Shown: positions 2,240-23,136 of the stretch, in pieces
Layout: each line of letters opens with the position of its first letter
Position numbering within the stretch: position 1 is the stretch's first letter
Assembly (NCBI GenBank): GCA_013696975.1
Contig: JACCXO010000005.1
Span: 1-32,264 of the forward strand
Source: Nocardioidaceae bacterium
GTDB lineage: Bacteria; Actinomycetota; Actinomycetes; Propionibacteriales; Nocardioidaceae
Length of the DNA stretch: 32,264 bases
Reading direction: 5' to 3'
Notes under the pieces: generated by a model
Told to the model about the DNA's origin: nothing
The model's database searches: none
Seen by the model: the letters and a program-made list of their open reading frames with translations, nothing else
Translations under genes and position numbers: made by a program

Positions 2240-2529
2240 CCCAACTCCTGCCACCGCGCAGGACCGCAACTCGCTGACCCGGGCAGAACGGCACAACGAC
2301 GACTCTTCGGCACCAGGTTGCACAGCGCCCAGCCCTCGCTGCCAGCTCTTTCAATGCAGTCATCTGCCTGTTCTGCACGTGATCTTCCAGGACATGCGCG
2401 CGGGCTCCCGGTCAGGCATGGGCGACATCTCGGCGGCGCAGTCCGGCAGGCTCAGCGGTGCGCGCTCGCGCGATGGCGGCGAAGGCGACGGCGAGCAGAA
2501 CCCAGACGGTCACGACCACGGCGGGGAGG
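2240..2529. other. Non-coding or eroded stretch before the oxidoreductase-methyltransferase remnant
   Basis: No intact gene is visible. On the minus strand, 2416-2525 reads as a possible C-terminal tail of a membrane protein (one helix with TVWVLLAVAFAAIARAR, then a basic end and a stop), followed by an overlapping ATG that stops after 22 codons. This could be the eroded junction of an older operon. The reading is speculative because GC-rich antisense frames often look hydrophobic. Confidence 0.25.
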
Positions 2530-3358
2530 TGCTGGGCACCCTCGTCCCTTCCGAGCCAACCGGCGCCACCGCGGTCTCGGGCGTCTGGGTCGCAGGCAAC
2601 GTCGGCGACGCGATGGCCCAGGTCGTATCCTCGGCCGCTGCCGGCCTCCGCGCAGGCGCGATGGTCAACGCCGACCTCATCGAGGAGGAGACGCAGGCCG
2701 CCCTCTCCACCCATCGCGCCGAGCTGGCCGACCTCTTCGAACAGCCCGGCTGGGACGACCGGTATGCCGCTCGCGACGCGATCTGGAGCGGTCGGGTCAA
2801 CCCGCAGCTCGCGGCTGAGGCGGCCGACCTCGAGCCCGGAATGGCCCTGGACGTCGGCAGCGGCGAGGGGGCGGACGCCATCTGGCTCGCCGAGCGCGGC
2901 TGGTCAGTCACCGGCATCGACTTCAGCACCGTCGCGCTGGAGCGGTCGGCGGCGCACGCCGCCACCGCCGGCGTGGACGGGCGCACCGAGTGGCGCCACG
3001 TCGACGTCCGCACCTTCGACCCCGGAACCGAAGGCATAGGAGAGCGCTGGGACTTGGTGACGTCGCAGTTCATGCACCTGCCCGATGGCGGAATGGTCGA
3101 CCTCACCCGCCGGCTCGCCGAAGCGGTCGCCCCCGGCGGCACATTGCTCGTCGTGGGCCCCACCCCGACGACCTCGCGACCGGGCTGCGACACGGAAGAC
3201 GGAGCTTCATGTTCACCCCCGAGGATCTGTTGCCCGCGCTCGACCCGGAAGTATGGGAGGTCAAGGTCGTCGAGGTCCGACCACGCACGGTGGTCGGGCA
3301 CGACGCACTGCCGGTCACCGTGGGCGACTCCGTCCTGCGCGCCCGTCGGCGCTTGTGA
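2530..3358 (+). pseudogene. Remnant of a FAD oxidoreductase / SAM methyltransferase fusion
   Basis: The first part (about 2530-2700) reads as the C-terminal end of an NAD(P)/FAD-dependent oxidoreductase: GATAVSGVWVAGNVGDAMAQ, then VVSSAAAGLRAGAMVNADLI. In this family the GVW.AGN motif binds FAD near the C-terminus. It continues in frame into a class I methyltransferase with ALDVGSGEGADAIWLAERGW (SAM-binding motif I) and a conserved acidic GIDF strand. At about 3160-3166 the frame breaks; the C-terminal part (HPDDLATGLRHG, MFTPEDLLPALDPEVWEV and onward) continues in another phase to the TGA at 3358. One base is missing in a GGGCCCCACCCC run. Fused oxidoreductase-methyltransferases are known in actinobacteria. 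The oxidoreductase N-terminus is absent, so a full product cannot be made. A methyltransferase start near 2660 is conceivable but would still meet the frameshift. Confidence 0.7.
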
Positions 3359-3450: not shown

Positions 3451-3722
3451 ATGTATTCGGTGTCGGCTCAGTCCACCTTGCACCTCACCATCGGTCTGCC
3501 TGTAGTGGGGAAGACGGCGGTGGCTCGGTAGTCCTGGACTTTGGTTGTCGGTCGCCCGAAGAGTGGTACGCGATCCGTTCGATCGCAGAACTGGCCGGAG
3601 CAAGATTCGAGCTGCATCACCTCGAACTGTGCGAGCGTGAGCGGCGCGCCCGTTCCGACCGACGGTGGCGCGAGACGCCGAACGTCACCTTCCAGATGAC
3701 CGACGCGGGGCATCAAGGCTGA
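3451..3722 (+). pseudogene. Remnant of an AAA/zeta-like P-loop ATPase
   Basis: ATG 3451 opens MYSVSAQSTLHLTIGLPVVG followed by KTAVAR, a Walker A motif, and stops at a TAG near 3529. In another frame the sequence resumes with VVLDFGCRSPEEWYAIRSIA and then FELHHLELCERERRARSDRR. In AAA_33-type kinases these form the VVLDFG strand and the lid region. The stretch between P-loop and VVLDFG, usually several tens of residues, is missing, and the C-terminus ends just after TFQMTDA. The gene has therefore suffered an internal deletion with a frameshift and loss of its 3' end. Its tail abuts the cut tail of the soxR remnant at 3729. Confidence 0.65.
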
Positions 3723-3728
3723 GGACCT

Positions 3729-3975
3729 CGGAGCGCGGTCTGTCGGCAGGGTGTCCAGGGCCTGCCTCACCTGATCGAGGCTCAGACCGACGCGTTGCGC
3801 GGCAGCGATGAAAGCCAACCGACTCAGTACCCAGCGCGGATAGCGCCGCTGATTGCCGCCGGTGCGAGTGCAACCCACGAGCGCGCGTTGCTCGTAGTAG
3901 CGCAGCTCGCCACGGACACTCCAGCTCGGCGTGCGACCACACCGATCGTGAGGAGGCGGCGTTCGCGATCGTCAC
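3729..3975 (-). pseudogene. Truncated, frameshifted soxR-like MerR regulator
   Basis: On the minus strand the segments LLTIGVVARRAGVSVAS and then LRYYEQRALVGCTRTGGNQR and RLAFIAAAQRVGLSLDQVRQ are clearly a MerR/SoxR DNA-binding domain. They closely parallel the intact copy at 22156-22617. The two segments lie in different frames; one base is missing around 3903-3907 (GCGAGC/TGCGC). Homology stops at LPTDRAP (3729), so the dimerisation helix and the iron-sulfur cysteine cluster are gone. No start codon is in frame with the first segment. The adjacent operator at 3990-4020 survives. The product cannot sense redox-active compounds. Confidence 0.8.
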
Positions 3976-3989
3976 GACACTCCTGACGC

Positions 3990-4020
3990 TTGACCTCAAG
4001 CACGCATGAGGTTGCAGACT
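3990..4020 (+). promoter_or_regulatory. SoxR-type operator/promoter of the MFS gene
   Basis: TTGACC (3990-3995), a 19-bp spacer containing the inverted repeat CCTCA-N8-TGAGG, and CAGACT (4015-4020) match the MerR/SoxR promoter plan: an overlong 19-bp spacer with the operator between -35 and -10. Transcription should start about 7 nt after the -10, at or next to the GTG at 4027. The spacer palindrome is slightly degenerate (CATGAGG rather than CTTGAGG). The nearby soxR is broken; the intact SoxR encoded at 22156-22617 is a possible regulator in trans. Confidence 0.72.
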
Positions 4021-4026
4021 CCTCTG

Positions 4027-5313
4027 GTGCTCAGACGCCTTGGCCTACCCGATGTAACCGGTCACGTCCCCCTGCTCGGGGCGTTGGCCGTCGATGCGCT
4101 CGGCAGCGGGGTGTTCCTGCCCTTCTCGATCTTGTTCTTCACGGTGACCACGCCCCTTTCGCTCGCGGAGGTCGGGCTGGGCTTGTCGGTCGCAGCTGGC
4201 ATCGCGCTACCGGCAGGACCGCTTCTCGGGACCCTGGTGGACCGAAGCGGAGCCTGGCGGGTCCTGCTCGCCGGCAACCTGCTGCAGGCACTCGGCGTAG
4301 CGAGCTACCTGGTCGTCGACACGTTCGGCGGCCTAGTCGTCGCCGCCGTCGCGGTCGCCCTGGGCAGCCAGGCCTTCTGGGCCGCCTACTCCCCCCTTGT
4401 CACGCAGATCTCAGCGCCCGGTGAGCGCGAGCGCTGGTACGGCTTGCTCGGGGCGCTCCGCAACGCCGGCTTTGGCCTCGGCGGGCTGCTGTCGGGTATC
4501 GGGCTGGCGGCCGGTGGAACCGCCGGCTACCAGGGCGTCGCCGCGGTGAACGCCGCCAGCTTCCTGCTCGCCGCCCTACTGCTCCTGCTCGACCGGTCGC
4601 ACGCCCGGCCCGCGGCCACCACCGGTGGCAGCGCGGACACGGGAGCCGGTTGGCGGTCGGTCCTGTCGGACCGCCCGTACCTGGCCCTGACCGTGGTCAA
4701 CATCGCCTTCGCGACCAACTCCTTCGCCCTGACTGTGGTCCTTCCCGTCTACGCCGTCGCTCGGCTGGACCTGCCGCCCTGGCTGCCCGGCGTCGGCCTG
4801 ACGCTGAACTGCCTGCTGATCGCCCTCACGCAGGGACCCGTCGTACAGGCCCTGATCGGACGGGCCCGTGTACGGGCTCTACAGGCGTCCTCGGCGCTTT
4901 CGGCAGCCTTCGCCGTGATTATGCTCCTGGCGGCGGCGGTCCCGCCGATGGCCGGTGTGGTGGTCGTGCTAGCCGCCGTCGCTGTGTTCACCCTCGGGGA
5001 GCTGATCGAGTCCCCGGTGCTCGCGGCCTTGGCCAGCGAGGCTGCGCCCGACGCCCTGCGCGGGCGTTACCTGGCGCTGAACCAAGCTTCCTGGAACATC
5101 TCGAACACTCTCGCTCCCGCGCTGCTCACCGCCCTGCTCGCCGTAGGGATCTGGCCTATTTGCGTTGCGCTAATAGGCCTGGCCGCCGTGGCCGCGCTCG
5201 GAATCACGGCGGTCTCGACCCGACTACCCGCAGCGCGCCAACGGATCGGTTTCACACCCGACCCCCTCCATGCCACCACCCACCTTGCAAGCCCGGACGA
5301 CTCTTGCACGTAG
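4027..5313 (+). CDS. MFS efflux transporter
   Basis: This is a 428-residue protein with about 12 predicted TM helices in two halves and no soluble domain, the usual size for a drug-exporting major facilitator. Visible elements include helix 1 with ALAVDALGSGVFLPFSILFF, the loop after TM2 with GTLVDRSGAWRVLLAGN (motif A-like, D-R), a central polar linker rich in A/T/G (about residue 205), and the second half starting near SVLSDRPYLALTVVNIAFAT. An in-frame ATG at 4006 lies inside the SoxR operator and upstream of the expected transcript start, so I take the GTG at 4027 and a leaderless message. Export of redox-active or antibiotic compounds is likely but the substrate is unknown. The gene looks intact. 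Confidence 0.85.
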   Translation: MLRRLGLPDVTGHVPLLGALAVDALGSGVFLPFSILFFTVTTPLSLAEVGLGLSVAAGIALPAGPLLGTLVDRSGAWRVLLAGNLLQALGVASYLVVDTFGGLVVAAVAVALGSQAFWAAYSPLVTQISAPGERERWYGLLGALRNAGFGLGGLLSGIGLAAGGTAGYQGVAAVNAASFLLAALLLLLDRSHARPAATTGGSADTGAGWRSVLSDRPYLALTVVNIAFATNSFALTVVLPVYAVARLDLPPWLPGVGLTLNCLLIALTQGPVVQALIGRARVRALQASSALSAAFAVIMLLAAAVPPMAGVVVVLAAVAVFTLGELIESPVLAALASEAAPDALRGRYLALNQASWNISNTLAPALLTALLAVGIWPICVALIGLAAVAALGITAVSTRLPAARQRIGFTPDPLHATTHLASPDDSCT

Positions 5314-5639: not shown

Positions 5640-6553
5640 CGCTCGGCGGTGGAGCACTCGCACGCGGAGGTGACGGCCTGGCCGCGGTCGGTCCGATGCT
5701 GCGCGCGTACGTCGTCAGCGAGGCGATGCACGCCCTCGGCATCCCCACGACCCGCTCCCTCGCCGTGGTGGCGACGGGGCGGCCGGTGCGCCGCGAGACC
5801 CTGTTGCCAGGAGCCGTGCTCGCCCGGGTCGCGAGCAGCCACCTGCCCGTGGGCAGCTTTCAGTACGCCCGGGCCACGGGTGACGTCGACCTGCTGCGCC
5901 GACTCGCCGACCACGCGATCATCCGTCACCACGCCGGCGCCGCGGAGGCCGAACATCCCTGTCTCGCATTGTTCGAGGCGGTGGTCGCCGCCCAGGCGTC
6001 GCTGGTGGCTCAGTGGATGCTGGTGGGGTTCGTCCACGGGGTCATGAACACCGACAACATGGCGATCTCGGGCGAGACCATCGACTACGGGCCGTGCGCC
6101 TTCATGGAGTCCTTCGACCCGGCCACGGTCTACAGCTCGATCGACGAGGGCGGGCGCTACGCCTACGGCAATCAGCCGGTCGTGGCGGAGTGGAACCTCG
6201 CCCGGCTCGCCGAGGCTCTCCTTCCCCTCTTCCACGACGACCAGGAGCAGGCGGTCGCACTCGCGGTGGAGTCACTCGGCGCGTTCCGCCGGCAGTACGG
6301 CGCCGCCTGGTCGCAGCGCTGGCGCGCATTGGGTCCGGACGTCGACGCGATGGGCCGGGTCAACCCCGTCTACATTCCCCGCAACTACCTCGTCGAGGAG
6401 GCCCTCGCCGCCGCCACCGAGGGCGACCTGGATCCACTCCAACGGCTCCTGGACGCGGTAGCAACCCCCCACGACGAGCGCCCTGGCCTCGAGCGCTACG
6501 CCGCCACCGCCCCGGAGGACTTCGGCGCCTACCGGGCCTTCTGCGGGACCTGA
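5640..6553 (+). pseudogene. selO: SelO (YdiU-type protein adenylyltransferase), N-truncated with internal deletion
   Basis: SelO is a pseudokinase-fold enzyme that transfers AMP to protein side chains and usually has about 480 residues. Here strong identity begins at [20 protein letters not shown] and runs through [40 protein letters not shown] (metal- and nucleotide-binding segment) and [20 protein letters not shown]. It then jumps from YGAAWS straight to [20 protein letters not shown] and the normal C-terminal end ...AYRAFCGT. The first 100 or so residues are missing, and the conserved KGSG.TP lysine motif reads [10 protein letters not shown]. About 100 residues are deleted internally, in frame. 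The frame is open from an ATG at 5552, so a protein of up to 333 residues could be made, but activity is unlikely. Confidence 0.75.
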
Positions 6554-21419: not shown

Positions 21420-21473
21420 CCGACTTGTCAGCAACTGAGGCCGCTATAGCCGTCCCAGTTTCTGACAAGTCGG
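21420..21473. repeat. 18-bp inverted repeat in a divergent promoter region
   Basis: CCGACTTGTCAGCAACTG (21420-21437) and CAGTTTCTGACAAGTCGG (21456-21473) match in 17 of 18 positions around an 18-nt loop that itself has GGC/GCC ends. The hairpin lies between the divergent DUF2344 and HIT-like genes and ends 2 nt before the HIT ribosome binding site. A terminator would be odd here. It looks like a dispersed palindromic (REP-like) element or a 5' UTR control hairpin. Confidence 0.75.
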
Positions 21474-22155: not shown

Positions 22156-22617
22156 CTACCTCTTCTCCTGGGCGCGCCTCAGCCAGCGCGACCCAGTGCC
22201 TTCGGCTGCGGCCGAATCCTCGGGGTTGAAGAGGCTACAGCGGGTCAGTGACAGGCATCCGCAGCCGATACAGCCGTCGAGGTCGTTTTGAAGGGCCTCC
22301 AGTTCCCGAATGCGGTCAGCGACCAGTTGTCGCCAGGGTGAACTCAGCCGCGTCCAATCGCGTTGACTTGGCGCCCGATCCGTTGGCAGTGCGGCGAGGG
22401 CGGTGGAAATCTGCTCCAAGGACAAACCCACACGCTGCGCGGCTGCAATGAACGCGAGCCGGCGCAGGACCGACCTCTGGTACTGCCGCTGGTTGCCAGT
22501 TGATCGCACAGAGGCAATCAGACCGCGCTGCTCGTAGTAGCGGAGGGTCGGCACGGACAATCCTGCTCGTTGAGCGACTTGGCCGACCGGTAGCAGCTCG
22601 GTCGGGATGGTTGGCAC
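22156..22617 (-). CDS. soxR: SoxR, redox-sensing MerR-type regulator
   Basis: SoxR is a [2Fe-2S] transcription factor that activates promoters when oxidised by redox-cycling compounds. The 153-residue protein has the winged HTH LLPVGQVAQRAGLSVPTLRY, then YYEQRGLIASVRSTGNQRQY, a dimerisation helix, and the cluster-binding cysteines in CIGCGCLSLTRCSLFN (about residues 115-130). The start is a GTG at 22617 without a clear Shine-Dalgarno site. It is divergent from the questin-oxidase-like remnant, with a SoxR box in between, the normal regulator-target layout. The HTH is nearly the same as in the broken copy at 3729-3975, so the two probably share DNA specificity. Confidence 0.93.
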   Translation of the reverse strand: MPTIPTELLPVGQVAQRAGLSVPTLRYYEQRGLIASVRSTGNQRQYQRSVLRRLAFIAAAQRVGLSLEQISTALAALPTDRAPSQRDWTRLSSPWRQLVADRIRELEALQNDLDGCIGCGCLSLTRCSLFNPEDSAAAEGTGSRWLRRAQEKR

Positions 22618-22642: not shown

Positions 22643-22673
22643 TTGACCTCAAGCCCGCTTGAGCCCATTCACT
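22643..22673 (+). promoter_or_regulatory. SoxR-type operator/promoter beside soxR
   Basis: TTGACC (22643-22648), a 19-bp spacer with the perfect palindrome CTCAAG-CCCG-CTTGAG, and TTCACT (22668-22673) form a classic SoxR promoter. The ATG at 22680 is 6 nt after the -10, so the message would be leaderless. The geometry is identical to that at 3990-4020. Confidence 0.8.
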
Positions 22674-22679
22674 GTTGTC

Positions 22680-23088
22680 ATGATGGACGGCGGCGTATTG
22701 GAGGGCGCCTACGAACGACTGCACCGTACGGGACCCGAGGTGGCCAATTCACGAGGCGGGGTGGCGGAACCCGCACGGCGATCCATCTCGACTCGGCGAT
22801 TGGCTCAGTCCCTTCGCTCTGCTGGTCCGCGAGGAGCCGTGGAGGCAGGTCCTCACTCGTTGGTGGCCATGGATGGCTGCAGTCACCCGCTATCAGCGCT
22901 GGACTCATGGCAGCCCGGTGATGCCGGTGCATGCCGCGACCGCTCCCCGGACCGAACTCGCGGTGGACAATCACGACGAACACGACACCAAGTTCGTCGA
23001 GGTCGCGGCCGAGTCCCACCACCGCGGCAACGCCGCTGCGCTCTCCGCCGGAACGCGCGCCGCGGAGTTGATCACTCCCAACTGGTAG
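22680..23088 (+). pseudogene. Degraded questin-oxidase-like gene (DUF4243)
   Basis: The remnant starts with MMDGGVLEGAYERLHRTGPE, a normal N-terminus for the questin oxidase-like family (normally several hundred residues). It loses the frame and most of the N-terminal half, then gives GDWLSPFALLVREEPWRQVL and TRWWPWMAAVT in another frame. It jumps again to the C-terminal part ending AVDNHDEHDTKFVEVAAESH, then HHRGNAAALSAGTRAAELIT and TAG at 23088. At least two deletions and one frameshift are needed. Questin oxidases are fungal Baeyer-Villiger-type enzymes acting on anthraquinones; bacterial homologues are of unknown role. A quinone-related target fits SoxR control, but the gene is dead here. 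Confidence 0.65.
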
Positions 23089-23136
23089 GGCAGGGGCGAG
23101 ATGGCTCGACCGCAGACAGGAGGACCGACAAAACCG

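Follow-up and report, generated by a model that had tools for sequence, protein, structure and literature searches.

The intact MFS exporter gene at 4027..5313 (+) of the window, the whole 32,264 nt stretch of a Nocardioidaceae contig that was analysed, probably belongs to a small SoxR regulon and, judging from promoter and protein comparisons, would be controlled in trans by the intact SoxR encoded at 22156-22617. The window holds a broken soxR behind the MFS promoter (locus A), two SoxR-type operators with identical spacing to the respective start codons, and, at a second site (locus B), an intact four-cysteine SoxR, which is the only SoxR found in this genome; as the assembly is 82.5% complete, another SoxR or further targets may be missing from it. 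It had been predicted that the second regulator may have captured the MFS gene or that the gene is unregulated; of these, regulation by the intact SoxR now has the better support, and relatives that carry the operator without a linked soxR argue against the capture.

The MFS promoter was delimited by pattern search and consists of the -35 element TTGACC (3990..3995, +) and the -10 element CAGACT (4015..4020, +), 19 bp apart, a geometry that recurs in the relatives. The SoxR-type dyad CCTCAAG-CACG-CATGAGG (3994..4011, +) sits between both elements in this over-long spacer and agrees in 13/14 positions with the consensus, which is near CCTCAAG-N4-CTTGAGG as quoted in PMC4411124. The TTGACC-19-CAGACT plan with its near-palindrome, as originally predicted, was confirmed together with its coordinates. 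With up to two mismatches allowed, the pattern TTGACCTCAAG-N6-TGAG occurred twice in the window (0.01 expected), and the exact pattern was found in the whole 82.5%-complete genome only at the MFS gene and at locus B. The 13 bases CTTGACCTCAAGC are common to both operators, and in each case a start codon follows 33 nt from the box. Promoters combining TTGACC and the dyad number two in this assembly, one per soxR, and the genome-wide scan yielded no third site with dyad and promoter plan. One further SoxR-like dyad scoring 13/14, without a TTGACC -35 element, is located on another contig (G000:C26:216-233).

The MFS gene was intact as predicted, but its start had to be corrected. ATG 4006 is an unlikely start because it lies between the -35 and -10 elements, within the operator. 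GTG 4027 is in frame, is located 6 nt past the -10 element and is the position from which the alignments of the relatives begin, so that it is the more probable start and the MFS mRNA is probably leaderless. Among 68 distinct SoxR boxes from all loci, 35 had a start codon (ATG or GTG) 33 or 34 nt from the box, compared with 0-4% for most other offsets; the lone additional peak, at 25, corresponds to the ATG within -10 elements of the GGATG/CGATG type. In Nocardioidaceae, the box-to-start spacing makes it possible to call SoxR targets and their leaderless starts from the sequence; starts of the ATG 4006 type, inside promoters, should not be annotated.

The soxR remnant behind this operator (3729..3955, -) comprises the HTH/DNA-binding domain in two frames, an N-terminal HTH piece at 3955-3911 (LLTIGVVARRAGVSV) and a second piece at 3905-3729 (LRYYEQRALV...LPTDRAP), separated by a frameshift at ~3910-3906, where 5 nt stand in place of the 6 nt of the intact paralogue (a 1-base deletion). 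The single in-frame start upstream of the remnant is a GTG within the operator. TIGR01950 matched the remnant over model positions 17-78 alone, with 62.3 bits against a cut-off of 116.9; the dimer helix and the four-cysteine motif are missing, and when the Fe-S segment and C-terminus were sought in all frames of the window they were present solely in the intact gene. The SoxR similarity stops abruptly at about 3719-3729, where the remnant of an AAA_33 P-loop kinase gene begins on the opposite strand (3472..3722, +). Its pieces, when joined, match PF13671 with E=1.5e-6; its middle is deleted and its 3′ end is truncated at this junction, at ~3720-3728. In the simplest reading, one deletion would have taken the facing 3′ ends of the two convergent genes. 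The predicted loss of the iron-sulfur domain and of the frame was borne out in these details. The same prediction held that the distant SoxR is intact, which it is, and that it has the same HTH, which does not hold, since the two proteins are 71% identical over the 59 readable residues. With the DNA identity at 72% as well, a recent duplication of the intact soxR was rejected as the origin of the local one.

Upstream of the kinase remnant lies a fragment of an oxidoreductase/methyltransferase gene (2520..3358, +; 87% DNA identity to G004:C43). Relative to that copy, it lacks one base at 3160, within a C-rich run. The substitutions between both sequences are distributed 7/8/27 over the three codon positions, and this third-position bias indicates that the lesion at 3160 is recent or a sequencing error. 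Given the fragmented, 82.5%-complete assembly, the single-base deletion at ~3908 could likewise be an error, and errors in sequencing or assembly might then merely mimic a broken local soxR. We regard this as very improbable, because the Fe-S segment is gone with unrelated coding sequence in its place, and the housekeeping reading frames on the same contig are free of frameshifts.

Locus B is the mirror image of the MFS locus, with an intact regulator and a wrecked facing gene. The intact soxR (22156..22617, -) encodes 153 aa, scored 197.8 bits against TIGR01950 (cut-off 116.9) and aligned over its length to E. coli SoxR 2ZHG (E=3.8e-42), with the CxxCxCx5C [2Fe-2S] motif complete (CIGCGCLSLTRC opposite CIGCGCLSRSDC of 2ZHG). 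Its closest relatives among the compared loci, two SoxR proteins of one genome with 65-68% identity (L065 and L066 in G015), are encoded opposite a glyoxalase/VOC-like gene across a near-perfect SoxR box. The second SoxR promoter (22643..22673, +) contains TTGACC (22643-22648), the dyad CCTCAAG-CCCG-CTTGAGC (22647-22664; 13/14) and the -10-like element TTCACT (22668-22673), and the box lies 33 nt from ATG 22680, the probable leaderless start of the facing gene. That gene (22680..23089, +) is frameshifted and has suffered large internal losses. It matches the intact gene opposite soxR at locus L052 of genome G003 in two blocks that lie in different frames, namely AYERLHRTGPE near the start and, farther on, a stretch with 47.5% identity over 40 aa; the profile search returned no Pfam match for the remnant itself. 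The designation as questin-oxidase-like is tentative because the intact gene at L052 matched PF14027 with 25.9 bits, below the cut-off of 27. As for the congeners, the contig of G002 ends at this locus and G001 carries another gene there. An inverted repeat of ~53 bases at 21420-21473, present in many copies in the genome and in congener G002, looks like a REP-/MITE-type palindrome.

The dyad of locus B still scores 13/14 in front of a dead gene, and a preserved box therefore need not imply a working target. This observation bears on the main alternative, namely that the MFS operator is likewise a fossil, with the regulator dead and the MFS gene unregulated or in early decay like its neighbours. 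Indeed, the gene is flanked on both sides by gene remnants, the kinase, soxR and oxidoreductase/methyltransferase pieces on one side and, directly 3′, a SelO (protein adenylyltransferase) remnant on the other (5660..6553, +), which lacks ~115 N-terminal residues (PF02696, E=7.8e-64, profile positions 117-332 of 466; NCBIfam YdiU, 116-335/462). The MFS protein also retains fewer conserved residues than its relatives do, 73 of the 98 columns that are invariant among 12 relatives, although some shortfall is expected because the columns were defined on those relatives. Yet the frame is open over 428 codons without frameshift or stop, with a coding-type GC content by codon position (0.74/0.54/0.84), the -35 element, dyad, -10 element and start have all kept their spacing, and the genome has an intact SoxR. 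A fossil operator thus appears unlikely, and control by the distant SoxR remains our preferred reading. PF07690 covers the MFS protein over its full length (profile positions 2-347 of 347, 113.8 bits against a cut-off of 33.4, E=1.1e-32), and the NCBIfam equivalogs for drug efflux (Tet, MdtH, YdeE) scored below their cut-offs, the best being tet_MFS with 34.5 bits against 475. The protein is divergent, with mostly 36-46% identity in a 13-row alignment and a long branch in the tree, so that it may be a paralogue or a xenologue; a search for a plasmid origin gave no match, and no relative close enough for a measurement of selection was found.

We compared 346 Nocardioidaceae genomes, among which 86 others contained an MFS relative and 258 a SoxR. 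A dyad of at least 11/14, a score reached in 0.3% of shuffled upstream regions, preceded the MFS gene in 20 of the 65 genomes with soxR and in 0 of the 21 without (Fisher p=0.0015), counts that are inflated by relatedness and in which some genomes without soxR are incomplete, absence being taken from the list of SoxR matches. When phylogeny was taken into account, ~3 of 9 independent pairs agreed and 0 were against (p~0.25), which is suggestive and not significant. Many MFS relatives have no dyad, some of them in genomes that possess soxR. No soxR turned up in the ~0.2-3.6 kb covered upstream of the MFS genes, the window's own remnant being the one exception, and a linked soxR-MFS pair as the ancestral state of the transporter was rejected accordingly. 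A scan of named genomes added further relatives with the operator from Dermacoccaceae and Arsenicicoccus (genera Leekyejoonella, Luteipulveratus, Metallococcus and Arsenicicoccus), again with no linked soxR in the ~0.2-3.6 kb upstream.

These relatives argue against a genuine capture, in which the MFS gene would have joined, around the time of regulator loss, a promoter that the local soxR had shared with a former divergent partner. The soxR remnant does lie directly behind the operator, divergent pairs of soxR and target are common, and the congeners G001 and G002 lack an MFS relative at E 1e-40. However, the MFS relatives of many genomes share operator and spacing without a linked soxR, so the operator need not derive from soxR, and we consider such a capture improbable. 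Given the distribution of the dyads (20/65 versus 0/21) and the lack of linked soxR genes, control of this transporter by an unlinked SoxR in trans appears to be the usual arrangement, and the term capture probably does not apply; the pump was probably part of a trans-acting SoxR regulon earlier than the local soxR was present, or without any involvement of that gene.

In the mechanism that we propose, a dimer of the SoxR encoded at 22156-22617 would bind the MFS promoter in the over-long 19-bp spacer and, in its reduced state, keep this promoter inactive. Oxidation of its [2Fe-2S] cluster by a redox-cycling compound would distort the DNA and let RNA polymerase initiate at GTG 4027, and the leaderless mRNA would give rise to an exporter of redox-cycling compounds, the induction and the substrate both being presumed. 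The local soxR would have been a second, redundant copy that has since decayed, and locus B the reverse case, in which the enzyme gene was lost and the regulator remained; any selective reason for retaining the second soxR belongs to the same conditional account. The broader picture can be put forward only tentatively: reciprocal decay of two SoxR modules in one small genome, with the regulator lost at locus A and the target at locus B, may have left a two-locus switch made of the survivors, and, more generally, a trans-acting SoxR-MFS regulon with leaderless targets and a fixed spacing of 33-34 nt may extend across Nocardioidaceae and neighbouring families.

SoxR-controlled MFS pumps with 19-bp spacers and unlinked SoxR regulons that include transporters are established. 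This organization resembles the one described for mfsA of Stenotrophomonas maltophilia, an MFS pump gene under SoxR control with the SoxR box inside a 19-bp spacer and a divergent soxR (PMC4411124). In that species, the neighbouring soxR is intact and regulates mfsA, whereas here it is dead and the probable controller is unlinked; the start in our case is probably leaderless, unlike that of mfsA, and MfsA belongs to the 14-TM subfamily, whereas the MFS protein in the window scores weakly against models of the Tet/MdtH type. For Pseudomonas aeruginosa, PMC4146615 describes PA3718 and PA4205-PA4208 as SoxR-controlled, with PA3718 among the unlinked targets, which likewise places membrane transporters in a small, scattered SoxR regulon, in another phylum and with other transporter sequences. 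Streptomyces coelicolor has an actinobacterial SoxR whose small regulon consists of unlinked genes for a transporter and redox enzymes, among them SCO7008 (PMC4146615), although its transporter is of the ABC type and not an MFS protein. Its soxR (SCO1697) was reported not to be autoregulated (PMC4146615), whereas the intact soxR studied here faces a SoxR box. Less ordinary are the decay of opposite partners at the two loci and the leaderless geometry with its fixed spacing. No paper describing either was found in the open-access literature searched, and the same literature yielded nothing relevant on soxR pseudogenes with surviving operators.

The analysis revises the view of a switch that is broken at its own locus in a soil-type actinobacterium: a regulator may decay next to a target that stays under control, since a regulator encoded at another site can serve the operator. 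Nocardioidaceae also gain a testable SoxR regulon. Among the compared loci, we also noticed five (L033, L055, L062, L063 and L067) in which soxR faces a gene for the N-terminal part of transketolase with a SoxR-like box in between; the facing protein of L055 matches PF00456, and a SoxR-controlled transketolase is possible in several Nocardioidaceae.
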